From NCBI GenBank assembly GCA_910575615.1, contig CAJTEX010000020.1, forward strand, positions 1 through 55,074: a stretch of 55,074 nucleotides of DNA, written 5' to 3'. Every line of letters begins with the position of its first letter. Positions within the stretch are counted from its first letter, which is position 1. The notes below the pieces were generated by a model. It was not told the DNA's origin. It searched no databases and saw only the letters and a list, made by a program, of their open reading frames with translations. Of the stretch, positions 2,233 to 47,691 are shown one piece after another. This DNA comes from Bacteroidales bacterium (lineage in GTDB: Bacteria; Bacteroidota; Bacteroidia; Bacteroidales; Muribaculaceae). A program made the position numbers and the translations under genes.

Positions 2233-5200
2233 TTAAAATTTCCTTGATTTCCTTACATTTTCGAGGGCCTGCTGATCTGACTTCTTCTTGACCGGCAATG
2301 TCGATGTGTCTTGCCTCACAAACACCGATCCGTCGGCCATCCTCACCACACCGGCGAACGGCTTGACCGACACCACGGCGAAGCAATGGTCATCTATGTC
2401 GTCAAACTCCAGCGCGACAAGCGAGGGATAGACCTGCGTACCCTCCACGGCAAGGCCGAACTGGTCGCGCAGCACCTTGCAGAATCTCAGGCTGAACTTG
2501 TCCTTGACATCCTGGAGGTCATACTCCTCGAAACCATTGTTGATGTAGACAAAATCATTAACCAGCCCGCGAGGCACACCCGTGTTGGCCACTCCTATAT
2601 ATAACGTTCCACCCTCGGTGTTCAGCATGCCGCATATCACCTGCGCGATCTCCAGGCCCTGTTTTTTCTCGTCGGGCTGCATTTTGTTGCCCGCCGGATA
2701 CACCAGCGACTCCTTGAACTCATGGTACTGGTCTTCATTGGCATTGACACGGGAGACATCAATGTCCGGCATCTGAAGACTCAGCAGGTCATAGATCGAC
2801 TTTTTCAGCTCACGGCGCAACGAATTGAGTCGCAGCCCGCGGAGCATGTTGTAGGAGGCCACCATACGCTTCAGCGCGCCCGTCAGGGAGGAATCCCTGT
2901 CGTCGGGCAACGTCACCGTCTCACCCATCGCAGGCGCGTCGAGCATCGACAACGTCTGCAGAATCTCCATCCTGCGGGCAAGGTCAGAATCATTGCCCGG
3001 GAACTGCGAAACCCTGCGGGCAAGCTCGGCGACACCCGCGCGGTCGACGCGTCCGTCAATCACAAACCTCGACAGCCCCTCGACCATCGCCTGCTTAAGT
3101 TCAAGGAACTGCGCGCGGTAAGTGTCGCCCGCCAGCAACGCCAGCAGACGGGCCGACGCGAGGAGCGTGTATGTCTCGGTGATATTGTCGCGCGACACAA
3201 AAGCCATCGCGTCAAGCACACGCGACAACCCGTTGACAGCCTCCGCCGTCAGGTAATTTTCAGGCACCTGGCCCACACATGAGTCCATGTCTTCCACCTC
3301 ATCATGCGCCTCATCCTTGCGGGCCGGCTCAGTCCACACGCGTCCCCCGCAGACCGAGGAGAGCAAGTAATGGAAATTGCGTCTCACCGTCCGGTAATTC
3401 TCCACCGGATTGTTGTCATCAGTATACTCTTCAAACCGCGCGGCAATATACGGCTTGTTGTTCTTCTTGTTCCAGCCGATGTCATTGACAGTGACCATCA
3501 CCTTCTGGTCTTTGTGGAGTTCCTCGCCATTCTTGTAAATCAACACCGGATAACCGCCGTCAGACACTGCCAGGCACGACTCTCCGAGGTCTTTGGTAAT
3601 CACCGCCTCCATCTGAGCCTGATCCTCGCGGTCCTCCTTTGCGAGCCGCATTATCTCCTCGTCGACCTCCTTTTCCATCGAGAGCCTGAAACGGCCATCG
3701 GGCAAAACACCCGTGACACGCCCGCGGAACAGCATCTGTCCCTCTTTGAGCCAGAAAGTCTCAAGATAAGGGGAAACCGGATAAAGGACAATGTCGCGGG
3801 TGTTTATCACCCCCGCCCCCTCATACACCGGGTCCTCGATCACACACCCGAAGGTGAACTGGTCGGCCTCCTCGCGCCCAACGACCCTGAATGTGACCTC
3901 GTCATCCACCACAGGCTGCAGCTTCTTGGTCTCCACAACCTTAGGGGCCACACTCGGAGCCACCTTCTGGTCAGGATCAAACAGACTGTTCTCAAGTTCC
4001 TTCCACATGACATGGTGACGCGACAGGTTCTGGTCATCCTGCCCCGTGCGGTCATCCAGACGCCCGTTGAGACACACCGAGAAAGCCGCGCTGTCAGAAA
4101 GCCTGACAGCCAGAGCCTCCTTGGTGGCAGCCCCGGTGACCACCGGAGCCACCCTTATATTGCCCCCCTTGACCGTCAGCGAGGCGCTCTGCCCCTCGAA
4201 CGAACTGAGAGACTTCTGACTCGACGCGCCCCTGTGGTAACGATACAACCCGCTGAGGTTGGCATAGCACAGGCGGTTGACATCGTCAAGATCCTTCCAT
4301 CCATACTCCAGCGGCATGTCAAGATTCTCGGTAAGCGCCCCGACAGCCTTCTCGGCAAGCGCGGCCACAGGCTTGCCGATAAGCAACATCGCCAGGGTGT
4401 AAAGCCGCCCGCGGTAAAGGTTCCACCGGGCGTAATCCTTGTTCTGGGTGAGCAGCAGCAATATCGCAATCGCCTCTATCAGCTCACGCAGAGCCTCATG
4501 GCTCGACGTGTTGACAAACTTGCTCTCATTGTCGATGAAAATCCTGAGCATCAGTATGAACCCATCTGAAAACTCCCCGAGGAAACGGAGGTCGGAATGA
4601 TGATCGCGGATAACCTTGAATATCTCCCAGATATAATCATGCACATATGAATTCTTCAGCGTGAACAAGGCCATCATCAGCCTCATCTTCTTCTCGGGCT
4701 TGTAAAGCCAACCCGTCGATCTCAGAGACGCCAGCGTCTGGGTGATGAACTCCACATCCTCCCCCTTGGCTATCAGATTGGCCGCGTGAAGGTAATCCTC
4801 GCAGTCAAGAATCACATCCGACAGACGCTCTTGCATACGGCGGCGTTCATCCATCGGGAACCCGTTGAGATACTCCGACCGCTCAATCAGCGACAGGGCA
4901 AGTTCCTTCAACTGCCCCAGCAAAACCACTCGGAAGCCTTCACCACGCCTGAACCACATCGGAATATTGTTGGTTATGGACTCCATCACGGCCAGCACCC
5001 ATTCCGGATTGCCGTCATCAAGCCTCCCCCGGGCATCGTCAAACACCGGATTGGCCATCAACCGTTTGAAAAATCCATCCCACGACAGCAAGCGCGCCCC
5101 CTTGAGATCGCGCATGTCTGACACAAGGAAACGCGCAGCGGGGGTCTCTTTCTTCTCCTTGACATATTCGAGCCTCAGCTGCCCCTTGTCGGTGGAGACC

Positions 5201-9069: not shown

Positions 9070-9100
9070 CCAACTTTTTGCATTCTGCGGTTGTTTGCAT

Positions 9101-9131
9101 TTTGCATTTATAGCCGTTTTTGTTAATTTTG
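9101..9131 (+). promoter_or_regulatory. Promoter of relA
   Basis: TTTG (9101-9104), 19 bases, then TAATTTTG (9124-9131). This matches the Bacteroidetes consensus and gives a leader of about 30 bases. Confidence 0.8.
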
Positions 9132-9170
9132 CGAACATAACAGCAATCCGCAATTCATCCCAGTTGCGTT

Positions 9171-11441
9171 ATGGAAGACAAGAACAACATCAAAGACACC
9201 GCAAATCCGCCAGACACCATCAACGAGGCCAACCTGCTCAACAGCGCCGAACTCGCGTCGCTGCCTTCATTGTATCTGGCCCTCTGCCGCTCAGCCCGTG
9301 AAATCACCGACCCGCAGGCAGACCGCAAGTTGCGCGAGCTTGTCACACGCGGAGCAGCCGAAGGGGTGTTCCCGCGCGACCGGTTCGGCTTCAGCGCGTT
9401 GACAAGGGCGCTCCAGAGCGCCGACGCCTTCTGCCGCCGTGTCAGCCCCAACCGCAATGTCATACTGGCCATGCTGCTCTACCGCATGTGTGACGGACAG
9501 TTCCTCACCCTGGAGCAAGTCGAGCAAGACTGGGGGGCCGATGTCGCCAAGATGGTCAAAGGATTGCTGAAAGTGGCCTCGTTGTATTCCCGCGCCAACA
9601 CACCTGAGTCTGAAAACTTCCGCAGGCTGCTGATGGCATTCGCCGACGACATCAGGGTGATAATAATGATGATTGTCGACCGCCTCGTGTTGATGAAACT
9701 CATCAACCACCACCCCGCCGAAAGGCTTGTGCGCGACATCGCCGTGGAGTCAAACTACCTCTACGCCTCCCTGGCCCACCGTCTCGGACTATACGCCATA
9801 AAATCCGAGCTGGAAGACATGTCGCTGAAATACACCGACAGGCAGACCTACACCGACATCGCCCGCCAGCTCAACGAGCGCAAGGCAAAACGCGACGCAT
9901 ACATAGCGGCTTTCATCGCCCCCCTCCGGGAGAAGCTCCTCTCCATGGGGCTCAACTTTGAAATCAAGGGACGCACCAAGTCGATTTTCTCAATCTGGAA
10001 CAAAATCAAGAAGCAGAAAAACGACATCGACCACATATATGACCTCTTCGCCATACGCGTCATAATCGACACTCCGCCCGAGAAGGAGAAAAACGACTGC
10101 TGGCTGGCCTACTCCGTGGTCACCGACATGTACCAGCCCAACCCCTCGCGCATGAAAGACTGGATCTCGGTGCCGAAAAGCAACGGCTACGAGTCGCTCC
10201 ACATCACCGTGGCAGGTCCCGAGGGGAAATGGGTCGAGGTACAGATACGCACTCGCCGCATGGACCTCGTGGCCGAGAAAGGCCTCGCCGCCCACTGGCG
10301 CTACAAGGGCATCAAGAGCGAGGAGGTGCTTGACTCCTGGATGAACAAAATCCGCGACCTCCTCGAGGACACCGAGTCAGGCCCCATGGAGCTGATGCGC
10401 AATTTCAAGATGGACATCTACGACAAGGAGGTGTTTGTCTTCACCCCGCGAGGCGACCTCTTCCGTCTCCCCGCCGGAGCCACACTGCTCGACTTCGCTT
10501 TCCATATCCACACCAACGTCGGCAGCCAATGCACAGGCGGCCGCGTCAACGGCAAAAACGAGAAGCTGACCTACCGCCTGCGAAGCGGCGACACCGTCGA
10601 GATACAGACATCGGCCAACCAGTCTCCCAAGCCCGACTGGATAAATATAGTGGTCACCTCCAAGGCCCGCACCAAAATACGCCAGACACTGAAGGAACGG
10701 CAGAACAAGTCGGCCGAGCTGGGCCGCGAGATGATGATGCGCCGTCTCAAGAACCGCAAACTGGAATTCGAGGAGGCCGCCGTCAGCAGGCTGGTCAAGA
10801 AGATGGGCTACCGCAACATGACCGACTTCTTCAACGAAATCGCCGAAGGCCGTCTCGATGTCAACGACGTGATGGAGCGGTACGCCACATTCGAATCACA
10901 CCCCCATGACCCCCATGCCGGAAAGGTCTCGGCCGAGGAGTTCAACCTCCAGACCGCCCAGGGAGAGGAGGCCGACGCATCGGCCAACGCCGACGACGTG
11001 CTGGTGATAGGCAATGACATCAAAGGGATAAACTACAAGTTCGCCCGCTGCTGCAACCCTATCTACGGCGACGACGTGTTTGGATTCATCTCAGCCGAGG
11101 GGGTGATAAAAATCCACCGTGCCGACTGTCCCAACGCGGCCAACATCCGTGAACGCTACCCTTACAGGGTCATCACCACCCGCTGGTCAGGCAAAGTAGG
11201 CTCGCAGATGGGAGCCACCCTCCGTGTGGTGGGCAATGACGACATCGGCATCGTCACCAACATCACCTCAATAATAAGCAAGGAGAAAAATGTCTCGCTA
11301 AGAGCCATATCCATCGACTCAAACGACGGGCTCTTCCAGGGCCACCTCTCGGTAGGCATCCAGGACAACGACTCGCTCAACGCCCTGATACGGAAAATCA
11401 AGACCGTCAAGGGGGTGAAAGAGGTGTCGCGCGCCCGCTGA
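9171..11441 (+). CDS. relA: RelA-type (p)ppGpp synthetase with inactive hydrolase domain
   Basis: 756 residues with the long RelA/SpoT layout: N-terminal pseudo-hydrolase (about 30-210), synthetase (about 225-370), TGS (about 410-475), a Cys-Cys zinc-finger-like segment (FARCCNP) and a C-terminal ACT/RRM domain (about 680-756). Synthetase features are intact: GRTKSIFSIW, R327-M-K-D330, PKSNGYESLH and EVQIRT. The hydrolase metal-binding His-Asp pair is replaced by Tyr104-Arg105, and the DRLHNM motif reads DRLVLM, so hydrolysis should be lost. It makes (p)ppGpp during the stringent response, presumably with a separate SpoT elsewhere. It carries the RxKD motif usual in bifunctional enzymes rather than the ExDD of proteobacterial RelA. 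Confidence 0.92.
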   Translation: MEDKNNIKDTANPPDTINEANLLNSAELASLPSLYLALCRSAREITDPQADRKLRELVTRGAAEGVFPRDRFGFSALTRALQSADAFCRRVSPNRNVILAMLLYRMCDGQFLTLEQVEQDWGADVAKMVKGLLKVASLYSRANTPESENFRRLLMAFADDIRVIIMMIVDRLVLMKLINHHPAERLVRDIAVESNYLYASLAHRLGLYAIKSELEDMSLKYTDRQTYTDIARQLNERKAKRDAYIAAFIAPLREKLLSMGLNFEIKGRTKSIFSIWNKIKKQKNDIDHIYDLFAIRVIIDTPPEKEKNDCWLAYSVVTDMYQPNPSRMKDWISVPKSNGYESLHITVAGPEGKWVEVQIRTRRMDLVAEKGLAAHWRYKGIKSEEVLDSWMNKIRDLLEDTESGPMELMRNFKMDIYDKEVFVFTPRGDLFRLPAGATLLDFAFHIHTNVGSQCTGGRVNGKNEKLTYRLRSGDTVEIQTSANQSPKPDWINIVVTSKARTKIRQTLKERQNKSAELGREMMMRRLKNRKLEFEEAAVSRLVKKMGYRNMTDFFNEIAEGRLDVNDVMERYATFESHPHDPHAGKVSAEEFNLQTAQGEEADASANADDVLVIGNDIKGINYKFARCCNPIYGDDVFGFISAEGVIKIHRADCPNAANIRERYPYRVITTRWSGKVGSQMGATLRVVGNDDIGIVTNITSIISKEKNVSLRAISIDSNDGLFQGHLSVGIQDNDSLNALIRKIKTVKGVKEVSRAR

Positions 11442-11569: not shown

Positions 11570-14500
11570 ATGATCAAACATTTGCTAACCGGTGTGCTGC
11601 TTGGCGCAGCCCCCTTAGCTCTCTCCGCCGCTGACAACCTCAACGTCATGCCATGGGTCAACGGCACCGAATGGGCCGGCACTTCTGTCGAAAAGAAAAG
11701 CGATGGCTCCTATGTCATCCACGTCTCCGAAGACTGGGCCGGGGCCGGCATCGACTTCGCCGCCGACCATCCCGACTTCTCCCTCTCAGGCTTCACCGCT
11801 GTCCACATAGATGTCTCCGCCGACGGCGCAGGCAACAAGATGGTGTATGTCAACTATTCCGGCGGGGATTTTGACGAATACAACGGAGAAGGCGCATCCG
11901 GCACTTATTATTTCCAGGAGGGGAAGGCGATAGAGAAGATCGTGTTCAAATTCCAGAACCGTGGCACATACACGATGAGGGAATTCACCCTCCTCTCCCC
12001 TGCCAGCGCGCAACCCGAACTGCTGGCATCCGGCAACTGGCAACTTAACGCCTGGGGAGACCGCCACACCATCGACACAAGCGTCTTCAACAACATCAAA
12101 CCCGGCGACAACCTGACAATCACCTACTCTGCCTCAGACAACGCCCAGGCCCAGATCTACGCCCCGAGGAGAGCCGGGGAGGTCAACGCCAACTCAGCGG
12201 CCGACGCATGCCACCTCCACACCACAACCACCGGCGACAACATCTATGCCGACCTGAGCGCAGGGGAGAACATGACCATCAACGTCAAACTGACCGACGA
12301 CATGGTCAAATACCTGCAGCTCTACGGACTGGTGTTTGAAGGCCACGATGTGACATTCACCCGCATTGACCATATCGGCGGCAACCCAACCGTCGATGTC
12401 GACGAGCTGCCAGAGCCCGACATCGACCCCGTCACCCCCGACCAGGGGCTGGGAGGCGTCCCTGTCGGCGTGGCCCCGCGCAACAGCCTACCCGCGCTGT
12501 TCGACAACAATCCCTCCACCGCCTTCCGCGCCGCGAGGGCCGACAGGGCTTGGGCCGGACTCGATCTCGGCGAACCCCACGTCATCACCAAGGTGAAATG
12601 GATGGCTGCCGATGACAATGCCTGGAAGACCCTCCTCGGTGTATTCGAGGGAGCCAACAATGAAGACTTCTCAGACGCCATGCCCATCCACATTATCCGC
12701 CAGGCCAAACCCGCAGGCGAATGGAACGAAGCCGACATCTCCTGCTCACGCGGATTCCGCTATGTCCGCTACGTCGGCCCGCGCCGCCTTACTGACGCGG
12801 CGGCCGGCAACGGGGCCGGAGGGAGCCAAGGATCACACGGCGAAATGGCCGAGCTGCGTTTCTTCGGAGAGAAAGGGGCCGGAGACGACAGCAACCTCTA
12901 CCGTTTCACCAACCTCCCTACCGTTATCCTCAACACCGTCGACATGGAGGAACCCCATGACATGAATGTCGACCCAGACAAGGACCATGACCTCACAGCC
13001 ACCATCACGGTCATCGACTCCGACGGCAAAGTGCTGAGCAAACCTGGCATAACCCGCGAACGAGGCAATTACAGCCGCACATTCCCCAAGCGTCCCCTGC
13101 GTGTGAAATTCGACAAGAAAGACACCCCTGTGGCAGGCGCGAAAGCCCAGAAAAAGAAATGGGAGCTGCTCAACAACTACGGCGACAAGACCCTGATGCG
13201 CAACCTCGTGGCCTTTGACATCGCCCGCATGATGGGTATGGACTATGTGCCCTTCTGCACACCTGTCGATGTAATCCTCAACGGCGAGTACCGCGGCTGC
13301 TACCAGCTTGCCGACTCCAAGGAGGTCGATAAAAACCGTGTCAACATCCACGAAATGACCCTTGAGGAAGCATTGGCCGGGGGAGAAGCCCTCACCGGAG
13401 GCTATTTTATGGAGGTCGACGCATACGCCAACGAGGAACCCGCAGGCACTTGGTTCACCACCCCGCAGGGAATCCCCGTCACCGTCAAGGCCCCCGATGA
13501 CAAGGACGTGCTGTTCCAGACCAGTGCGCCGCTTGACTACATCACCGACTACTATTCCGACATGACCCGGCGCGTCAGCGACGGCAAATTCACCGGGCAG
13601 GGCAACTATCGCGAGATACTTGACGTGGAGTCTTTCCTCCAGCTGCTGATGACCAACGAAATCGGCGGCAACAAAGATGTGATGTGGAGCTTCAACATGT
13701 ACAAAGACCTCGGAGACCCCCATATCTACAGCGGCCCGGCATGGGATTTCGACGTGGCCTTTGACAACAGCCGTTACATAGACAACCAGGCATACGACAA
13801 CGACAGCTATCTTTACCTCAACACCCCCTCGGCAGCAGCCGGGTTCCGCGAATTCACAGAGAAAGTGATGTCAGACCCGCAGACCGCCGAAGAGCTGCGC
13901 CATCTCTGGGGAGCCGTCCGTGACAACGGCCTGAGCTATGACTATCTCGCCGGACAAATCGATTACTACGCCTCACTGATGGATGAGTCGCAGCAACTCA
14001 ATTTCGAGCGCTGGCCGATTCTCAACACTCCGGTGCATGACAACGCCGCCGCCCGAGGAAGCTTCCAGGCCGAGGTCAACCATATCAAGGATTTCTGCCG
14101 CAAAATCATCAGCCATTTCGACTCCAAAATCGGCTACGACCCCGGCGAACACGCCGAGATGATCGAGCCTGAGGTCAACGACGACCTTTCGGAGTTCCGT
14201 CTGTCGGTGCCCTACGGCAAACTGATGCTTGTCGACGAGGTTGTGGCCCCGGGCCAGCCGACCCCTGCGAAAACGGCCGCGATATCCGGCGGCTTCATCA
14301 ACGCCGACAAGGAATGGACGCTCGACAAATCCAGCCTCGAGGCCGACCACATCATCACCGTCTATGCCCGCCACGCAGGACGCAACAGCGAAGTGCAGTC
14401 TTACCGAGTCAACAGCGACGGCACCATCTCGGGGGTTGAGACAATCACCGCAACCACCGACGACAACCTGCCAAAGGAATATTACAACCTCACAGGCTCC

Positions 14501-39202: not shown

Positions 39203-39263
39203 TTTTTAATTTTTAATTTTTAATTTTTAATTTTTAATTTTTAATTTTTAATTTTTAATTTTT
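39203..39263 (+). repeat. AT-rich heptamer tandem repeat (TTTTTAA, about 8.7 copies)
   Basis: Nearly perfect head-to-tail copies of TTTTTAA, 61 bases, ending 11 bases before the -33 box of the peptide-cassette promoter. Simple repeats like this vary in copy number by slippage. It could act as an UP-like AT tract or a curved-DNA element for the promoter. Confidence 0.9.
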
Positions 39264-39274
39264 CATAGAAATTA

Positions 39275-39306
39275 TTTGCACATTTCCAATTCAAACATTA
39301 TCTTTG
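39275..39306 (+). promoter_or_regulatory. Promoter of the RiPP cassette
   Basis: TTTG (39275-39278), 20 bases, then TATCTTTG (39299-39306), an excellent match to the consensus. Transcription would start near 39313, so the precursor start codon must lie downstream of that. Confidence 0.82.
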
Positions 39307-39340
39307 TGACGCAGTTAGTTTCACTCCAACCAAAACAGGT

Positions 39341-39688
39341 GTGTTTCTTCCTCCTATAATCAATTTCATTCTCACTTTTTTAGATACAGGCCATCTGAAA
39401 AAAGACAATCAGCTTGCAAGAGTAAATGCTTTCATCGAAAGCCTCTCACTTCCATCCACCACAGATGGCATAATCCTTGTTGACTCCGAAATGGAATCGC
39501 ATGGAGCCATTGACACACTGACTGATTGGCAGAACGGTGGCAATTGCAAAAATGATTCACTTGGATCTTGCAGCACAAATAAAGGAAGTTGTGTAAATTC
39601 AGGTGTCGGTTGCATAAACTCCAAAAATGGCAGCAATTGTGACAACAAAAATACTGTCGGGAGTAATTGCCAGCAGGTTTGCAACTGA
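39341..39688 (+). CDS. Putative RiPP precursor peptide: leader, Gly-Gly site, 7-Cys core
   Basis: 115 codons from GTG 39341. No in-frame ATG precedes the leader; a CTG at 39395 followed by AAA AAA looks like a natural start (giving 97 residues), so the start is uncertain. The leader (LARVNAFIESLSLPSTTDG, ILVDSEME) ends with N65-G66-G67. The 48-residue core has seven cysteines at 69, 77, 84, 91, 100, 110 and 114, each preceded within three residues by glycine or the motif G-S-N (except the last), and is very rich in Asn, Ser and Gly. Position and promoter, together with the downstream radical SAM maturase and C39 exporter, support a modified, secreted peptide. No named family is recognised. 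Confidence 0.72.
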   Translation: MFLPPIINFILTFLDTGHLKKDNQLARVNAFIESLSLPSTTDGIILVDSEMESHGAIDTLTDWQNGGNCKNDSLGSCSTNKGSCVNSGVGCINSKNGSNCDNKNTVGSNCQQVCN

Positions 39689-39733
39689 CAATTAACGCCC
39701 AACGTGTCAAACAATAATGGCTGCCTCGTATTA

Positions 39734-39774
39734 GTTTTGTGCGCTGTCTTCGAAGAAAGGATGGCACACAAAAC
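39734..39774 (+). promoter_or_regulatory. Stem-loop between precursor and maturase genes
   Basis: GTTTTGTGCGC (39734-39744) pairs with GCACACAAAAC (39764-39774) with one mismatch, and TCTTCGAAGA forms an inner palindrome. No T run follows. It could protect the precursor mRNA end or reduce read-through, so that more precursor than enzyme is made. Confidence 0.55.
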
Positions 39775-39845
39775 GTACGATGCAGTGGCACGAATATACT
39801 TAGTGACGTGTATTTTTAGGTGCTTATCAAACATAATTATGATTT

Positions 39846-41141
39846 ATGAAACTTAGCAAGTTCAACAACTTTATACCATTACCGGGCGACAAAGTATTGG
39901 CATACAACGCATTCACAAGACGCTATCTAATTATGCCATCCTCAATATCCTATATTGTTTCCAATCTGCGTGAGGGAGACGATTTCGGCAATCTCAGCAG
40001 CTCAACTCTTCAATGCCTTACAGAAACCGGTTTTATAATCAAGAATGATGCTGATGAACTGACTGTGCTTGATAAGGACATCATCAATCTTGATTGTGAC
40101 CCAAGTAGTTATGAGCTGACAGTCAATCCTACTTTGGATTGTAACTTCAGATGTTGGTACTGTTATGAACAACATGGAAAAGGCACCAAGCTGAATAACG
40201 ACATCTTAAATCGAATAAAGAAACACCTTAACAACACCCTGCAACCACCTGTCGAGATATTTTACCTCAGTTTTTTTGGAGGCGAGCCTCTACTTCAATT
40301 TGAGGACGTATGTAAACCTTTGATGGAATATTCCAGAAGCTTATGTTCTGAGAGAAAAATTGGATTAAGAATTCATTTTACATCTAATTCTTTTCTTGTC
40401 ACAGATAGCATCATTGATTTTCTGAAGCAATATCTGTGTAGTTTTCAAATAACCCTTGATGGGGGAAAAGAATTCCACGACAAAGTCAGATTCACAAATG
40501 ATGGCAAAGGTTCCTACGACAAAATACTCAACAATGTCAAACAGCTGGCGAATAATGGGATTGTCATAACATTGAGGATAAATTACACACTTGGGAATAT
40601 ACACTCAACCGAAAACATCATCAACGACCTTCTGCGAAGTTGTATATGTCACCCAGAAAACATACTTGTCAATTTTCAACGTGTTTGGCAAGATTTCCAC
40701 AACGGAGGAGAAGAGCTGATAAAATCACTATTGAACGAATTCAAAAGAAAGCTTATTTCCAACGGGATGAGATTCTGTATTCCTGATATGTTGAATCCAA
40801 GGACCAGCAGCTGTTATGGAGACAAAGTAAATTCCGCTTGCATTAATTTCGACGGCGACTTTTACAAATGCACTGCCCGTGATTTCATCAAAAGCAATCG
40901 ATGTGGGTATCTGGACACAGAGGGCAAATTAATATGGGACAACGGGAAAGAAGCTTTATGGTCGACTTCGAAATTTATGCATCCGGCTTGCCGCGTATGT
41001 AGGATTGCCCCCATATGCCTTAGCGGGTGCAGACAAAAAAGCATCGAGGGGGTAAAAGAATGCGATTGCCCGCTGTGTTACGATGAAAAAAGAAAAGACG
41101 GATTGATTCTGCAACAATTTGAATCATTGTATATTAATTGA
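39846..41141 (+). CDS. Radical SAM/SPASM peptide maturase
   Basis: 431 residues. The N-terminal about 75 residues (NFIPLPGDKVLAYNAFTRRYL) look like the small recognition region seen in Bacteroidetes peptide maturases. The radical SAM cluster motif C99-x3-C103-x2-C106 lies in LDCNFRCWYCYE, and SFFGGEPLLQ is the GGE motif. The C-terminal SPASM region has cysteines at about 382, 385, 391, 395, 406, 408 and 411 for auxiliary Fe-S clusters. Such enzymes form thioether or carbon-carbon crosslinks in RiPP precursors; the cysteine-rich core upstream suggests thioether bonds. An anaerobic sulfatase maturase is the alternative, but no sulfatase is present. The gene is markedly more AT-rich than the flanking housekeeping genes. 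Confidence 0.86.
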   Translation: MKLSKFNNFIPLPGDKVLAYNAFTRRYLIMPSSISYIVSNLREGDDFGNLSSSTLQCLTETGFIIKNDADELTVLDKDIINLDCDPSSYELTVNPTLDCNFRCWYCYEQHGKGTKLNNDILNRIKKHLNNTLQPPVEIFYLSFFGGEPLLQFEDVCKPLMEYSRSLCSERKIGLRIHFTSNSFLVTDSIIDFLKQYLCSFQITLDGGKEFHDKVRFTNDGKGSYDKILNNVKQLANNGIVITLRINYTLGNIHSTENIINDLLRSCICHPENILVNFQRVWQDFHNGGEELIKSLLNEFKRKLISNGMRFCIPDMLNPRTSSCYGDKVNSACINFDGDFYKCTARDFIKSNRCGYLDTEGKLIWDNGKEALWSTSKFMHPACRVCRIAPICLSGCRQKSIEGVKECDCPLCYDEKRKDGLILQQFESLYIN

Positions 41142-41156
41142 TAACACATTCCCTAA

Positions 41157-43535
41157 ATGACTCAATCAACAATTATATCTCGACCAACCAAATTACTCAA
41201 AATCATAGCGATGTCTTTAGCGATAGCCGCTGGGACACTGAACGGGATAGCTCAAATCAGCGGCACTGTGGTCGACACGGAAGACAATCCCCTGGAAGGA
41301 ATTGCGGTAGTGATGATGCAGTCGCCCGACAGCTTGTTCATCAGCGGCACGATGACCGACATCAATGGTCATTTCTCATTCTCCGGGAACTCATTACCCG
41401 AAAAAGCCATATTGCGAGCCGAGGGTATCGGATACAGAAAAACTGACACAACCGCTGTAAGAGGAACCGCCTGCAGGCTAATGCTGGAAAACTCCGACCT
41501 TAAGCTTGGCGAGGTGACCGTCACACCCCCGTCATTGCAGGTGTCTCCAGGTAAATTCACGTTTTACCCCGGTGATATTGCCTCTTATGCCGACAACGGA
41601 TTCTCACTCCTCGAATACGCTCCTTTATTGCGAATCAGCGACCGGACTGACGTTGTCAGCATCATAGGCAAGGAAAACACCACGGTGTTTATCAACGGCA
41701 AAGAACCCATCGGAGGCGACTATGCCGCCATAAAGCTGCTGCAAGCCGCCGACCCATCGAGAATAAAGCGTGTAGAGATAATTGTGCAACCTGGAATTGC
41801 TGACTCCGAACACGAATCCATAGTGAATGTGATTATGACTCCGCTTAAAGGAAATCTGGTCACATCTGACGTGCTTCTTCATTATATGAATGACCGCCTG
41901 TCCTCCAGGCAGCAGGTGTTCTACTACGGGGAATATGACCGCTGGCAGTTCTCCGCCAGTTTTCACGCAAACGAGTCACGCGAAAAACGCAATTCACATT
42001 CCTCATACACTACCTACGGTGAAAGCTCCAGCCTCCCATATGACCTTGTAAGGATAAACGACGCGACAGAGACCTCAGACAGAAACTGGTTTTCAGCCGA
42101 TGTCGGCAGCAACCTTGACCTTGGCCACCGAAACTCTGTCGGGATGAATCTCAGGCTCAACATGTACCAGACCAAGGTCAGTTCAAATGTATTCTCACTG
42201 TATCAGCCATCCGGCTCCTCGCAGGAGACTTTTGAGCAAACCCACAAGCCATACAAACCCTTCGGGAGCGTCACGTTGAATTATGACCATGACTTGGACT
42301 CCCTCGGGAGCAATTTCTGGGCAAAAGCAGCTTTCTATTTTGATGAAGAGGAGGAATCGACGCATTATAATCCGGAATCACCGCTTTTGGCTTACCGAAT
42401 GCCATTTTCAAAAAAATCAGTCCAGTTCAAAACGGCATGGAACAAAGTGTTCAATGACAAGCTGTCGCTCCAGCTCGGCACAAAAGCATATCATGACAGG
42501 CAGCACTACAGGATGTTTGAGAGCAACAATCCAGCCCTCTCGCCCGACATGCCCATCACTGACAACTTCCGTTATCTGCAGAGTCATGCTGACATCTTCG
42601 GATCGGTGAGATACGACTTTTCAGACATCTTCAGCGTCCAGGTCGGAGCCACGGCAAGATGGTATGAAAGAGTCATAGACCAGTATGTGCAGGACATACA
42701 CCGAAAATACTCTAATTTATACCTCTTGCCATCAGTTTCAGTCAGTCTGAACATAAATTCCAATCATATATTAACCGTCGGATATGAGAGCAACCTGCGC
42801 CAGCCCGACTATGGCTCGGTCAACCCAATTGTAAAATGGCAGACCCCGACTTCATACACCCAAGGCAATCCCGACCTGAAGGCGGAGACAAGCCATAATG
42901 TCAGCCTGACTTACATATTGTTACAGAAAATGGTGTTTGGCGGGAAGTCTTCATTCATAAGCAACACCCCAAGATGGGCGGCGCTCCCCGTAGTGAATGG
43001 AATCACCGCAAGCGGACCGCTCGACATCGGCAAGGCTTCAAGGACCGACCTGTTCGCTTCTTATCAAAACGTGTTCCTGAACTACAGATGGATTTTGACA
43101 GGACAGGTAGAATGGTCATACCAACATTTTTCTGAATTCGGGCTATCCGACTCATATGGAATCGGCTCAGAGAACTCCTCGCAGTGGAAGATGACTCTCG
43201 GCAACAGCTTCTATGTCGGGAAAGCACGTGACTGGAGAATGAATCTGTCTTTGCGATGCGAGTCTCCTGTCGAAGAGCCTTTCTACAGACGCGGATGGCT
43301 GACTGACATCAACATAGACATACGCAAGAGTTTCAAGTGGGGAGGCGCAGTCACGTTATCTGTGGTGAATCTGCTCGACTCGCGGCCCAAAAGCCATTTT
43401 GAATGTGATGCTTATTCAAGCTGGAGCAAAAACACCGGCAGTCAACGTGTCGTGATGTTACGTTTTGACATGACCTTCGGGAATAAATTCGACACCCGAG
43501 ACATGAGTGGCACATCCGGCATGGGTGGAGAATAA
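41157..43535 (+). CDS. Outer-membrane beta-barrel, TonB-dependent-receptor-like
   Basis: 792 residues. A signal peptide (about 1-32, ending GIAQ) precedes a carboxypeptidase-regulatory-like beta domain (about 34-112, ISGTVVDTEDNPLEG), a plug-like domain (about 120-225) and a long barrel of the OMP_b-brl_3 type with many alternating strands. It is placed 15 bases after the maturase and 7 bases before the exporter, so it belongs to the cassette. Possible roles are outer-membrane exit route, re-uptake receptor or immunity/sensing for the peptide; the sequence does not decide. A TolC-like protein would have been the usual partner. Confidence 0.82.
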   Translation: MTQSTIISRPTKLLKIIAMSLAIAAGTLNGIAQISGTVVDTEDNPLEGIAVVMMQSPDSLFISGTMTDINGHFSFSGNSLPEKAILRAEGIGYRKTDTTAVRGTACRLMLENSDLKLGEVTVTPPSLQVSPGKFTFYPGDIASYADNGFSLLEYAPLLRISDRTDVVSIIGKENTTVFINGKEPIGGDYAAIKLLQAADPSRIKRVEIIVQPGIADSEHESIVNVIMTPLKGNLVTSDVLLHYMNDRLSSRQQVFYYGEYDRWQFSASFHANESREKRNSHSSYTTYGESSSLPYDLVRINDATETSDRNWFSADVGSNLDLGHRNSVGMNLRLNMYQTKVSSNVFSLYQPSGSSQETFEQTHKPYKPFGSVTLNYDHDLDSLGSNFWAKAAFYFDEEEESTHYNPESPLLAYRMPFSKKSVQFKTAWNKVFNDKLSLQLGTKAYHDRQHYRMFESNNPALSPDMPITDNFRYLQSHADIFGSVRYDFSDIFSVQVGATARWYERVIDQYVQDIHRKYSNLYLLPSVSVSLNINSNHILTVGYESNLRQPDYGSVNPIVKWQTPTSYTQGNPDLKAETSHNVSLTYILLQKMVFGGKSSFISNTPRWAALPVVNGITASGPLDIGKASRTDLFASYQNVFLNYRWILTGQVEWSYQHFSEFGLSDSYGIGSENSSQWKMTLGNSFYVGKARDWRMNLSLRCESPVEEPFYRRGWLTDINIDIRKSFKWGGAVTLSVVNLLDSRPKSHFECDAYSSWSKNTGSQRVVMLRFDMTFGNKFDTRDMSGTSGMGGE

Positions 43536-43542
43536 GACATCT

Positions 43543-45711
43543 ATGAGTTTCAGACAATTTCACTACTACCACCAGATCGAGCAGTCGGACTGCGGGGTGA
43601 CCTGCCTGAGGATGGTCGCCCGGCATTTCGGCCGAAAGATTCCCGTGAAGTTCCTGCGCTCCCGGGCGGATTTGTCGCGCGGCGGCATTTCCGTCAGGGG
43701 GCTGAAGGAGTGCGCGGAATCAATCGGCATGAAAGGATACGGGGTGAAGCTCGGTTCCGGGCTGTTGGGGGATGCTCCCCTACCGGCCATTCTCCACTGG
43801 AACCAGAACCATTTCGCCGTGTTGTGGAAAGTCAGCAAGGGGAGATACTTCGTGGCCGATCCTGCGGCCGGGATGATGGTCTATTCCCGGGAGGAGTTCG
43901 ACGCGCATTTCTGCGGCGACGGCGAGAGGGGCATAGCCCTGATTCTCGCCCCGACCGAAGAGTTCCACTCCGTCAGCTTCCCCGCCGACGACAGCCGGGG
44001 AAAGATTTTCCGCGCCCTGCGCGACAGCATCCGGGAGCATTGCTCCACCTACCTGCTCATCCTGTCGCTGGCATTGCTCGCGCTGGGAGCGAGCGTCTTT
44101 GTCCCGCTGCTCATGCAGAAGACAATCGACGAGGGCATCGCCCGGCGCGACATCCCCCTTGTATGGCTGCTGGTCATCGCACAGATCGCCATATTCGCCG
44201 GAAGCCAGCTGACCACATCCGTCTCGGGATATGTGGTCAACAAACTCGGGCTGCAGCTCTCTACCGGGGCCGTGGACCGGTATCTGACGAAACTTGTCAG
44301 CCTGCCGCTGCGTTTCTTCGACTCGCGGGTGAGTTCTGACCTCATCCAGAAGACCTACGACCAGGAGCAGACCCAGCAGTTCATGCTCCAGACCCCGACC
44401 ACTTTGCTTCTGACAATCATCAACATCGCGGTGTTCTCCGCGTTGCTGCTGTGGTTCAATCCATGGATTTTCCTCGGTTTCCTTCTGCTCACACTTGCCG
44501 GACTGGCCTGGGAGGGATGGATGCTCCGACGCAGGCGCAGCGTGGACTATGACATCCGCACCATCCAATGCCGCAACAACAACAACGTCTACGAACTGGT
44601 CAACGGCATCTCTGACCTGAAAATCCACAACGCCCACAATCACCGGGTGTCGCTCTGGCGCACGCTGCAACTGCGGCTCAACCTGCTGCGGCGGCGGTCA
44701 GAAAACATCCGGCTCATACAGGGGAGCGGCGCGTCACTGCTATACCAGTCGCGAGACCTGGCCATAACCGGACTTTGCGCCACTCTTGTCATCGGCGACG
44801 CGATGACCCTTGGGACAATGGTTACCGTCGCGTTTGTCTCCGGACGGCTCGCAACCGGTTTCAGCTCCATCTCCTCCTCACTGTCCTCACTGCAACAAAC
44901 ATCCATCGCCCTCGACCGCAGCAACGACGTGATGGATGAGCCTGCCGAAACTACTGAGGGGAGAATCGACAGCCTTGACGGCGACATAATCCTCCGGGAT
45001 GTCACATACAAGTACTCCGGCTGCGACAGCCGGCCGGTAATCAGCGGCCTTGACATGACCATCCCCCGGGGGAAGACAACCGCCATCGTCGGCCCGAGCG
45101 GATGCGGCAAATCCACCCTTATGAAGCTCCTCCAGGGGCTTTACCATCCACAAGATGGCTCCATCACCGCAGGGAAGGCGGATGTGGCCACGCTCCAGCC
45201 CCAGGAATGGGGAAAAATCTGCACAAGCGTATCGCAACAGGGCTACATTTTCTCCGACTCGATTGCCCGCAATATCGCCCTGGGAGATGAGTCTCCCGAT
45301 ATGGAGAGGGTGGCAGAGGCAGCCCGCACTGCCTGTCTAGACTCGCTCCTCGACAAACTCCCCCTGAAGCTCCACACCCTCATCGGCCCCTCGGGGATGG
45401 AGCTGAGCGGCGGTGAACGGCAGCGCCTGATGATTGCCCGCGCCGTCTATCGCGACACTCCGGTCATCCTCCTTGACGAGGCCACCTCCTCGCTCGATGC
45501 CGAGACCGAACGCCGCATCGTCGCCAACCTCTCGGATTTCTCGGAGGGGCGCACCATGGTCATCGCCGCCCACCGCCTCTCCACCGTCAGCAACGCCGAC
45601 CTCATCCTGTTCATGGACTCGGGCCGCATCACCGAGCAGGGCACCCACCGCTCCCTGATGTCGCTCGGGGGCCGCTACGCCTCATTTGTCTCCGGCCAGC
45701 TGACCTCATGA
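43543..45711 (+). CDS. Peptidase-containing ABC transporter (C39 peptidase, exporter, ATPase)
   Basis: 722 residues from ATG 43543. An N-terminal C39 domain has C17 in QSDCGVTCL, H90 in NQNHFAVL and D106 in VADP, the full catalytic triad. About residues 165-420 form the membrane domain (segments near 170, 205 and 290-320, with more around 400-425), and about 485-722 the ATPase: Walker A GPSGCGKST (517-525), signature LSGGERQ (from 621), Walker B LLDEATS (D645) and switch IAAHRLS. C39 exporters cut a leader after Gly-Gly while secreting the core, which matches the NGG site of the precursor upstream. No HlyD-type adaptor is encoded in the cassette. This gene is GC-rich, unlike the maturase. Confidence 0.92.
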   Translation: MSFRQFHYYHQIEQSDCGVTCLRMVARHFGRKIPVKFLRSRADLSRGGISVRGLKECAESIGMKGYGVKLGSGLLGDAPLPAILHWNQNHFAVLWKVSKGRYFVADPAAGMMVYSREEFDAHFCGDGERGIALILAPTEEFHSVSFPADDSRGKIFRALRDSIREHCSTYLLILSLALLALGASVFVPLLMQKTIDEGIARRDIPLVWLLVIAQIAIFAGSQLTTSVSGYVVNKLGLQLSTGAVDRYLTKLVSLPLRFFDSRVSSDLIQKTYDQEQTQQFMLQTPTTLLLTIINIAVFSALLLWFNPWIFLGFLLLTLAGLAWEGWMLRRRRSVDYDIRTIQCRNNNNVYELVNGISDLKIHNAHNHRVSLWRTLQLRLNLLRRRSENIRLIQGSGASLLYQSRDLAITGLCATLVIGDAMTLGTMVTVAFVSGRLATGFSSISSSLSSLQQTSIALDRSNDVMDEPAETTEGRIDSLDGDIILRDVTYKYSGCDSRPVISGLDMTIPRGKTTAIVGPSGCGKSTLMKLLQGLYHPQDGSITAGKADVATLQPQEWGKICTSVSQQGYIFSDSIARNIALGDESPDMERVAEAARTACLDSLLDKLPLKLHTLIGPSGMELSGGERQRLMIARAVYRDTPVILLDEATSSLDAETERRIVANLSDFSEGRTMVIAAHRLSTVSNADLILFMDSGRITEQGTHRSLMSLGGRYASFVSGQLTS

Positions 45712-45818: not shown

Positions 45819-46973
45819 ATGATAATGAAAGAATATCTCCGGATAGAGAATTTTGGCCCGATTGTCGACATTGAGATAAATGACATCCGGCCATTGACCG
45901 TGTTCATCGGAGAATCCGGAAGCGGGAAAAGTACGATAATGAAGGTGCTTTCCCTGTTCCGATGGATGTTCAAGCGGGTAAACCTCCGGTCTTTCATCAA
46001 ACTTTCGGGCATAAAGAACACCAAACTCGGGTTCAAGACTATGCCGCTTCTCAGGAATTCCGGGCTGCTTGAATACCTGAGGGAGGACTCCCGCATAACA
46101 TACCGAAACGGGCGATATGAGATAAAGATGGAACGCAAATCCACAAGCGTCAATGTCCGAGCCTTGGACGCGGCAGACCTCAGCCTTGAGAAGATATGCT
46201 TCATAAGCGACAAGCGTTCCATAATTCCGGATATCCTGTCAAGCACCGTCGACCGGCACAAGGACAATTTTTACCTCCAGGACACGCTTGAAAACTTCCG
46301 CACCGCCCTCAAATATGTGCCACACCTCAAGATGGATTTCCTCGGGGTGGAATTCAATGTGGAAAAGACAAAAAACGCCGGACTTCAATACAAGATTTCC
46401 GGGACAAGCGATGAAGGGGAATACACGATACACCTGCGCAATGCCTCATCCGGAATGCAGACGGCAACCCCATTGGGGGTGATCGTACAATATTTCACCG
46501 ATAAATACAACCTGGAAGACTCTCTCAACAGCGCGCTTTTCAGATACTTCACCGACAATGACAACCTCAAGGAGTTCCGCGCGGGGATGAATGTAGGGGA
46601 ATTCCCCCACCGGCGCGTGCATCTTTTCATCGAGGAACCTGAACTGAGCCTGTATCCTGACAACCAGACGGCATTGATTGACTTTCTTGTGGAGAGATGT
46701 TTCCATCACGGGCTTGACTACCAGGTGACGCTGATGATGGCCACCCACAGCCCCTACATTGTCAACTACCTCAACCTGCTCACCGCACGCCACCGTCACG
46801 CGTCACAGGGGGTCGCCAGCCTCTCTGCCGATGATGTCGATGTCTACCTCGTAGCCGGAGGGACACTGACCCGCATGAACATCGAAGACAACGGGACGGA
46901 TATCATCGACACCAGTGTTCTCTCTGACCCCATCGCAGAAATATACAACGAATACAACTCATTGGTGAAATGA
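45819..46973 (+). CDS. AAA_15/AAA_21-type ATPase, first gene of a putative defence pair
   Basis: 384 residues. N-terminal EYLRIENFGPIVDIEI leads into Walker A GESGSGKST (31-39). An ABC-like signature region (ASSGMQTATPLG), Walker B LFIEEPELSLYP and the switch ATHSPYIVNYL follow. The order is that of SMC/RecF-like ATPases of the AAA_15/AAA_21 class, which are frequent in phage-defence systems (OLD, PARIS AriA, Septu, retron-linked). Its end overlaps the next gene by four bases (ATGA), so the two products likely form one complex. A second in-frame ATG two codons downstream is equally possible as the start. Confidence 0.83.
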   Translation: MIMKEYLRIENFGPIVDIEINDIRPLTVFIGESGSGKSTIMKVLSLFRWMFKRVNLRSFIKLSGIKNTKLGFKTMPLLRNSGLLEYLREDSRITYRNGRYEIKMERKSTSVNVRALDAADLSLEKICFISDKRSIIPDILSSTVDRHKDNFYLQDTLENFRTALKYVPHLKMDFLGVEFNVEKTKNAGLQYKISGTSDEGEYTIHLRNASSGMQTATPLGVIVQYFTDKYNLEDSLNSALFRYFTDNDNLKEFRAGMNVGEFPHRRVHLFIEEPELSLYPDNQTALIDFLVERCFHHGLDYQVTLMMATHSPYIVNYLNLLTARHRHASQGVASLSADDVDVYLVAGGTLTRMNIEDNGTDIIDTSVLSDPIAEIYNEYNSLVK

Positions 46974-47617
46974 TTGTCTCCCTGCTCCAATCATCAATCC
47001 TCGCAGCCATAAACGACCGGCGGTCGGGAGCGTTGGAGACACCTTATCCCGCCCCGGCAACAGTCTTATACGAAGACATTTCCGACAATGTCTTTGACAT
47101 CGTGGATGTGAAAGGAACCGGCGGCTCGATAAAACGCGTCCCTGCCACCGGGACTGCGACATATTTCAACGGAAACGGCCCGCGCAGGCATGAACTGCGC
47201 TTCATAAGATATGAGGAATACCTCAACCAGTTCAACACCCCGCAGGGTGACTGGGCGAAAGGCATGAGCCGTCCCGACTTCATAGTCCACACCCTGGATT
47301 CCCAAGATTACTTCATAATCCATGAATTATCCGAGGGGGCGATTGGCAGCAAGAGACACAAGGCGGTCATTCAGATTCTGAACACCGTCAGGTTCCTGTC
47401 AAAGATTCCCGATGTCAAAGATTATCTTGACTCGTTCAGGGAAAGACTGTGTTATGTCTCCGCAAAGGGATGCGTCGGTATTGAGTCTCCCCAAGGGATG
47501 GCCGACGGCTTCATGGCCATTTACGACAAGTTGCCCGACCCGCTCCCGATAAACAACCAGTCGTTGGAGCGGATGGGATTCTCGGCATATGCCTCAAACG
47601 TGGTGAAACTCTACTGA
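46970..47617 (+). CDS. Unknown partner of the AAA ATPase, possible effector
   Basis: 215 residues, no signal peptide, no family recognised. The stretch around residues 101-130 (RPDFIVHTLD, then FIIHELSEG and a Lys/Arg cluster) has the look of a PD-(D/E)xK nuclease core, but the ExK is not exact. It is translationally coupled to the ATPase gene. By analogy with two-gene ATPase-effector defence systems it may be the toxic or nuclease part; this is inference only. Confidence 0.65.
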   Translation: MIVSLLQSSILAAINDRRSGALETPYPAPATVLYEDISDNVFDIVDVKGTGGSIKRVPATGTATYFNGNGPRRHELRFIRYEEYLNQFNTPQGDWAKGMSRPDFIVHTLDSQDYFIIHELSEGAIGSKRHKAVIQILNTVRFLSKIPDVKDYLDSFRERLCYVSAKGCVGIESPQGMADGFMAIYDKLPDPLPINNQSLERMGFSAYASNVVKLY

Positions 47618-47659: not shown

Positions 47660-47691
47660 TTTGGGGGATTCGGGAAAAATTCGTAAATTTG
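47660..47691 (+). promoter_or_regulatory. Promoter of glycyl-tRNA synthetase
   Basis: TTTG (47660-47663), 20 bases, then TAAATTTG (47684-47691). The leader is about 90 bases. Confidence 0.78.

Follow-up and report, generated by a model that had tools for sequence, protein, structure and literature searches.

Thermocellin is a SCIFF ranthipeptide, one of the ribosomally synthesized and post-translationally modified peptides (RiPPs). It has a Cys-rich precursor, CteA, and a maturase, CteB, with a RiPP recognition element (RRE) and a radical SAM and SPASM fold. CteB makes a link between Cys32 and Thr34 of CteA, which is a precedent for a thioether from a Cys to the residue two positions further on, and in NxxcA a C-beta thioether is found between Cys23 and Asn20 (PMC8326336). 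PapB links Cys to Asp at varied spacing (PMC9413430). Clusters BGC6-9 of Fernandez-Cantos et al. 2023 have a C39 peptidase-containing ABC exporter (PCAT) and an outer-membrane protein without a membrane fusion protein; their transport was left open (PMC10352776). Oar of Myxococcus is a TonB-dependent transporter which carries out the TonB-driven secretion of PopC (PMC6434023). We describe here a four-gene cassette in a Bacteroidales bacterium of the family Muribaculaceae, found at positions 39,275..45,711 of the forward strand of contig CAJTEX010000020.1 (assembly GCA_910575615.1). The whole stretch of 55,074 nt which was analysed will be called the window.

The cassette and its maturase

In all likelihood the cassette produces a small Cys-rich peptide, with predicted crosslinks, and exports it. 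All the elements which the original prediction had listed are present in the open reading frame (ORF) list and the domain scans: a promoter, a small ORF with seven Cys, a SPASM maturase, a plug-and-barrel outer-membrane protein and a C39 exporter, all in the same direction. The gaps between the genes are 157, 15 and 7 nt, in agreement with the ORF coordinates. Its assignment as a RiPP cassette is also supported: a precursor gene with a conserved leader and a variable core adjoins the modifying enzyme, which is a SPASM maturase of the thioether type, and the exporter is of the type that cleaves leaders.

On balance we favour a RiPP operon with Cys-Asn thioethers, C39 cleavage, outward passage through the barrel and a swappable specificity unit. 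The precursor leader would dock on the RRE of the maturase, which would join each core Cys to a nearby Asn by a thioether, with 2 Da lost per link. The acceptors would be the Asn of CxN for Cys 1, 3 and mostly 5, and an Asn a few residues further on for Cys 2 and 4. The exporter would then cut after the G[GAS] which ends the leader (between ESHGA and IDTL in the window) and deliver the peptide to the periplasm; a dedicated barrel, similar to TonB-dependent transporters, would pass it across the outer membrane. The exporter would see mainly the leader and stay interchangeable between species, while the precursor core, the maturase and the barrel would form the swappable unit. Cleavage and inner-membrane export are what the exporter family predicts; the cleavage site, the direction of transport and the function are those which we infer.

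The maturase gene is found at 39,846..41,141 (+ strand) and was characterized with NCBIfam, Pfam and comparisons of sequence and fold. Its protein has a CX3CX2C motif (Cys 99, 103 and 106), SPASM-type Cys at 323, 342, 382, 385, 391 and 395 and further Cys at 406-411. The NCBIfam models with the highest scores are TIGR04463 (152 bits, cut-off 525) and CefB NF038107 (141 bits, cut-off 600). Both matches span nearly the full length of the protein, but they are far below the curated cut-offs, as is the case for all NCBIfam models among the matches listed. The models of PapB (117 bits, cut-off 340), SCIFF (TIGR03974, 86 bits, cut-off 425) and GG_samocin_CFB (TIGR04148, 43.8 bits, cut-off 300) are not reached either. 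Kinship with sulfatase maturases had been named in the original prediction as a sign against a RiPP enzyme; the anaerobic sulfatase maturase model TIGR03942 gives 68 bits for a cut-off of 349, compared with the 152 bits of TIGR04463, and we have rejected this identity.

Among solved structures CteB is the nearest in sequence (5wgg, E 1.5e-17), and just one more was matched, ChlB at E 0.008. An AlphaFold model of the maturase (nine sequences, pLDDT 84) also has CteB as its closest fold (5why/5wgg, TM 0.66-0.69), followed by TigE and anSME. Its N-terminus has three strands and then three helices, the order found in an RRE. The enzyme is a SPASM-type radical SAM maturase of the CteB/PapB kind, as is found with ranthipeptides. 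The locus differs from CteA/CteB in its low score with the SCIFF model, and a barrel and a C39 exporter follow the maturase here. Including its own genome, maturase homologues are found in 34 of 393 genomes of the order (E 1e-20) and in 53 of 397 genomes of the family (E 1e-50); a second homologue in the same genome is not found at E 1e-5. In a quick tree of 65 maturases that of the window falls in a group of 25 (SH-aLRT 90, not starred), which we will call its clade.

The cassette is preceded by a Bacteroidota-type promoter, TTTG-N20-TATCTTTG, at 39,275..39,306 (+), detected by a motif scan. The same layout is found before the first precursor of contig CAMWVQ010000007, a related locus of the same genus which we will call L002. 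The consensus of such promoters, which we take to be TTTG-N(18-22)-TAnnTTTG, has 9 sites in the window, when 0.25 are expected from shuffles. As only one of them is at the cassette and the next one downstream is at 47,660, before the gene for glycyl-tRNA synthetase (GlyRS), the four genes look like one operon, judging from the DNA alone. Eleven nt upstream of the -33 element of the promoter there is a tandem array with 8.7 repeats of TTTTTAA (39,203..39,263, no strand assigned). A 30-nt probe, about four units, matches nowhere else in the 3.13-Mb assembly. The array is a possible repeat-number switch controlling expression.

The precursor family

The precursor ORF of the original prediction spans 39,341..39,688 (+), starts at GTG and has 115 amino acids, seven Cys and one Gly-Gly. 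Small-ORF scans around related maturases gave homologues of it, and we have aligned 25 rows: the window and 24 copies from 20 related loci. All 25 rows have at least five Cys in the core, commonly with spacing 8-7/9-7-9. Asn is found at Cys1+2 and at Cys3+2 in all rows, at Cys5+2 in 18 and at Cys4+5 in 22. Every row also has an Asn somewhere in the Cys2-Cys3 interval and another in the Cys4-Cys5 interval, positions which were not used to select the rows. Over all core Cys, 78 of the 138 positions two residues further on are Asn, compared with a mean of 26.1 and a maximum of 41 in shuffles. The core of the window, predicted from the alignment at 39,509..39,688 (+; 59 amino acids and the stop), has this scaffold of five Cys with Asn and two further Cys.

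Cys-Asn thioethers are a natural guess for the CxN motif because of the precedents of CteB, NxxcA and PapB, and by this analogy we infer them here; like the links of ranthipeptides, they would join the Cys to a non-alpha carbon. Three points weigh on the other side. The rows were picked by eye for CxN cores, which inflates the counts of this motif; the alternation has exceptions, since Asn is also present at Cys2+2 in two rows and at Cys4+2 in six; and the Asn could be structural rather than an acceptor.

The precursor type tracks the maturase clade. At least three CxN are found in 18 of 25 rows of the clade and in none of the 40 others. The original prediction proposed to search for a precursor upstream of homologous maturases, and took loci without a small Cys-rich ORF as evidence against it. 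An ORF with at least two CxN lies near 23 of the 25 clade maturases; the two without it, L131 and L140, are 115 and 290 bases from contig ends. Eleven of the 40 maturases outside the clade have a two-CxN ORF, some of them plainly chance frames, and a sister set of maturases has NNCxC cores, a label assigned by eye. A profile built only from the leaders of the 25 rows recovered all of them among 20,249 frames (1.24 Mb). With E < 0.01 it added L010, a second copy in L133, one copy in L046 and three pieces of L002, two of which are leader-only frames; the four added matches with a core have one to three CxN each. The small ORF might still be taken for a chance frame next to a maturase with another substrate, as it is short and has an odd start. 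We have rejected this reading as practically negligible in view of the leader profile, the Cys/Asn scaffold and the association with the clade across loci.

The statement that the core matches no RiPP class that can be named holds for the libraries tried. The window precursor has no match in NCBIfam and none above the Pfam cut-off. NCBIfam gives no match either for ten precursors from the wider group of maturases, of which six are CxN precursors or close to them and four have other core types. In Pfam, six CxN precursors have no match above the cut-off, one of them with two sub-threshold matches (E 0.026 and 0.088). A description of a CxN family was not found among the matches listed in the open-licence text of PMC, with subscription journals and preprints lying outside.

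The original prediction placed cleavage after the Gly-Gly of the ORF, at 39,536..39,541 (+). In the alignment this pair lies within NGGNC in the core, and NGGxC recurs inside the cores of relatives. The GG of the relatives is aligned with HGA of the window, 11 residues upstream, where most of them have G[GAS]. We have rejected cleavage at the core Gly-Gly; the conserved leader, defined by the alignment and the leader profile, spans 39,395..39,508 (+) and ends in DSEMESHGA. This end was read by eye from the alignment, and the window does not retain a hydrophobic residue at -4, so that it would be a double-glycine-type end only in a loose sense.

The start codon had to be revised as well. In both L002 copies an ATG is found at the position of a CTG of the window (39,395-39,397), and the 5' region is conserved in them. 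The untranslated leader would be 39,307..39,394 (+). Because the stretch from the GTG to the conserved start differs in length by 4 nt, the 18-residue extension from GTG is not ancestral, and the frame of these first 18 codons is not conserved. The other 24 rows start at an ATG within five alignment columns of the CTG, some of these starts having been chosen by hand among in-frame ATGs.

A precursor with CTG at its conserved start may be weakly translated or decaying, which would count against an active cassette in the window. We think it quite unlikely that this copy is silent or decaying after losing its normal start codon, as could be suggested by the ATG of L002 and of the other rows, by the GTG frame not being ancestral and by two L002 precursors whose leader is out of frame with the core. 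From the CTG all 97 codons can be read without a stop, the scaffold and the promoter are intact, and CTG as well as the in-frame GTG can initiate translation.

Several related loci have peculiar precursors. The two frame-broken copies of L002 are found at 4502-4800 and 11,750-11,970, the first of them near a run of C; they are either decaying copies or a silent reservoir of cores. Locus L044 has three identical precursors of 56 amino acids in tandem (about 9094-9921), upstream of one maturase. Cys-dense precursors with 10-11 Cys are found upstream of the maturase in L050 (9521-9754), L150 (about 10,646-10,903) and L153 (about 10,317-10,544). Their cores have repeats of NNCxC, NCPC or GCGC type, which are other core types of the wider maturase group.

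The barrel and the exporter

The outer-membrane protein is encoded at 41,157..43,535 (+). It has a signal peptide, identified by eye, a CarboxypepD_reg extension, the motif LGEVTV, a plug and a PF14905 barrel. Pfam recognizes the N-terminal extension and the barrel; the plug and the barrel appear in the fold model. Its best fold matches include the TonB-dependent transporters Cir, OprC and FepA. At the place of LGEVTV, the pattern [LIM]x[EDGN][ILVF]x[VIFL] is found in all 57 scorable rows of 58 barrels, the window included, and in 161 of 11,600 random 10-mers. Fold and motif place it with the TonB-dependent transporters, with barrel, plug and a putative TonB box. The plug-and-barrel description in the original prediction is confirmed by the model, but a plain export pore does not agree with such a fold.

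The exporter is encoded at 43,543..45,711 (+). According to Pfam and NCBIfam its C39 domain is fused to an ABC exporter, as in any PCAT, and the triad (Cys17, His90 and Asp106, counted from the ATG at 43,543) is intact and in context, as had been predicted. The homology to PCAT1 extends over the full length, including the peptidase. Exporters such as PCAT1 and ComA belong to Gram-positive systems, which have no outer membrane. For crossing it, the cassette offers the barrel alone.

We have surveyed the neighbourhood of 66 maturase genes in 61 loci, after dropping the duplicates L087 and L148. Of these, 48 have a C39 exporter within 8 kb on their own strand, 51 have a barrel and 43 have both; the direct order maturase-barrel-exporter appears in 35. 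The 48 genes linked to an exporter have a barrel only (42), a barrel and an HlyD adaptor (1), HlyD only (2) or neither (3). Barrel and HlyD tend to exclude each other (Fisher p 0.025). The HlyD profile came from four seeds and may miss weak adaptors; seven short second-round matches (150-171 amino acids) were not counted, and two of the short matches had no match in Pfam. Locus L049, outside the count, has HlyD and an exporter on the other strand and no barrel match. A one-to-one ratio of precursor and barrel was also considered and rejected: in L002 two barrels accompany three copies of the precursor, of which two are frame-broken, and L044 has its three identical precursors, a fourth small GG ORF and one barrel. 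In two cassettes of NNCxC type a family 2 glycosyltransferase gene follows the second barrel or the exporter (L003, 11,830-12,816; L149, 3394-4338), hinting at a glycosylated product.

The arrangement resembles BGC6-9 in having a PCAT and an outer-membrane protein without a membrane fusion protein. Most precursors in that study have leaders of GG type, and BGC6-8 have a radical SAM enzyme; however it is paired with a YcaO, and BGC9 has a LanM. The CxN scaffold, the barrel as a TonB-dependent transporter and mosaic exchange are not described in the excerpted text (PMC10352776). Papers on TIGR04463, or on a radical SAM enzyme with an outer-membrane barrel or TonB-dependent receptor and C39, were not found in the open-licence PMC text. 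With Oar the barrel shares the CarboxypepD_reg extension and the TonB box, and the outward transport proposed here is that of Oar. The Oar/PopC system differs in its protein substrate, its Plug/TonB_dep_Rec Pfam architecture and the lack of a RiPP operon (PMC6434023).

The simplest reading is that TonB drives the peptide outward through the barrel; recapture of the cell's own peptide comes close behind. We give the outward direction a slight lead since a barrel and HlyD are seldom found together, although the numbers are small. Several facts oppose it: TonB-dependent transporters are normally importers, the fold model is moderate (pLDDT 73, pTM 0.64), the contrast with HlyD depends on three loci that have it, and the gene for an adaptor or for TolC may lie in another part of the genome. 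We know of no RiPP that leaves the cell through a TonB-powered barrel.

It has a real chance, somewhat short of even, that the barrel is instead the cognate receptor for re-uptake of the secreted peptide, a private metallophore or self-signal which would leave by a TolC-type route encoded elsewhere. Pyoverdine and its receptor are an analogous specificity locus. The fold and the TonB-box-like motif agree with it, and the nearest folds among the matches listed are mostly importers of metal complexes or haem, with the microcin/colicin receptor Cir first. So does the divergence of maturase and barrel beside a conserved exporter between the window and L002, given below. Ranthipeptides derived from SCIFF precursors are connected with quorum sensing in the title of a reference of PMC8326336. 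On the other hand the ORF list and Pfam reveal no regulator or periplasmic binding protein between the promoter and the exporter, and a pure receptor does not need the exclusion of barrel and HlyD, small as the numbers are.

Divergence of the locus within the genus

We will compare the window with L002 and with L041, from genome G139. In all three the exporter is followed by GlyRS. A PIF1 gene on the left is common to the window and L002; it was not found in the 6.7 kb before the cassette of L041. Between the window and L002 the exporter has a synonymous divergence (dS) of 0.21 and 97% amino-acid identity. The genes of the left flank have dS 0.73, 0.61 and 0.54 (the first calculated with the L087 copy of that record; the portion within L002 gives 0.65), GlyRS has 0.33 and the next scored gene 0.77. 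In contrast, the maturase has 49% identity and infinite dS, i.e. it is synonymously saturated, and the two L002 barrels have 37% identity with dS infinite and 2.38, saturated or nearly so. The maturases of L002 and L041 are 63% identical and each has 49-50% identity with the window, whereas the exporters of the window and L002 are 96% identical and each has 70-71% identity with L041.

The conserved exporter beside a saturated maturase and barrel, together with the discordant identities of L002 and L041, indicates that the exporter does not have the same history as the rest. It seems to have been shared recently, and the rest looks like old, separate lineages; as far as can be read from the sequences, the locus is a mosaic of an exporter and the parts which would determine peptide specificity. 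Three of the 14 genomes of the genus have this exporter with at least 70% identity. Two others, G400 and G394, are free of the cassette: in them an interval of about 165-170 bp, which contains nothing else, separates the PIF1 match from the GlyRS match. The other nine have no PIF1 before GlyRS in the stretch compared, some of them being cut by contig ends.

Co-variation was studied in 16 loci. Leader distance follows the maturase and the exporter (r 0.76 and 0.77) and the barrel less (0.52). The distance between cores goes with the barrel (r 0.36-0.43) and has very little relation to the maturase (0.02-0.11), the leader (0.06-0.14) or the exporter (0.09-0.19, equalled in the best case by 36 of 1000 shuffles). 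The partial Mantel correlation of core and barrel is 0.40 (0 and 2 of 2000). In this test L002 and L041 are each represented by one of two barrels and one precursor, and when the extension was trimmed one row (L002) was cut at the wrong place. The link is lost within the barrels with an N-terminal extension (r 0.17, 308 of 2000), which tells against a unit of core and barrel, and we have rejected this co-evolution as proof of a receptor. It is suggestive only, because it rests on one contrast, that of barrels with and without the extension. In locus L135 an extended barrel is nevertheless combined with a Cys2-Cys3 spacing of nine, which is frequent in the other group.

Arms-race loci would also agree with the different cassettes found at a single site, with the sites lacking a cassette and with the spare precursors of broken frame in a relative. 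The product might be an antibacterial peptide against close relatives, with the barrel as its entry receptor or a part of self-protection. In Gram-negatives a PCAT exports the antimicrobial colicin V (PMC10352776). We find this unlikely: NCBIfam and Pfam give no cassette gene that resembles an immunity gene, and the same anatomy fits signals and metallophores. A little less doubtful, but still improbable in its full form, is the proposal that core, maturase and barrel are a swappable unit which recombines between species ahead of a shared exporter, and that a peptide with multiple Cys-Asn crosslinks is both secreted through a TonB-powered barrel and recognised by it.

Other genes are found at the same place. 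Between the exporter and GlyRS, at 45,819-47,617, the window has an AAA_15 ATPase gene and a gene of 215 amino acids which overlap by 4 nt; L002 lacks the pair in this position. The PADLOC model PDC-M29A is matched by the ATPase (E 1.2e-37) and the 215-amino-acid gene matches no PADLOC model, so that they are a candidate defence pair beside the RiPP cassette. Two other members of the genus have distant barrel homologues near GlyRS, G395 (L091, 160-4487) and G397 (L098, 5503-7935); that of G395 is accompanied by a C39 exporter of about 36% identity. The GlyRS neighbourhood may be a recurrent site for such cassettes.

The locus adds a precursor family with five Cys, each with a nearby Asn, which has no model in the libraries tried and has a matching maturase clade, and it shows an exporter and specificity parts with different histories. 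PMC10352776 left open by which route the outer membrane is crossed when a PCAT exports Bacteroidales RiPPs and no membrane fusion protein is present; here this becomes a question about one gene. A conserved exporter with a divergent peptide, maturase and barrel would suit a private signal, a weapon or a nutrient-catcher. Should the barrel prove to be a private gate or receptor, such loci would be candidates for a role of peptides in recognition or competition between members of the Bacteroidales.

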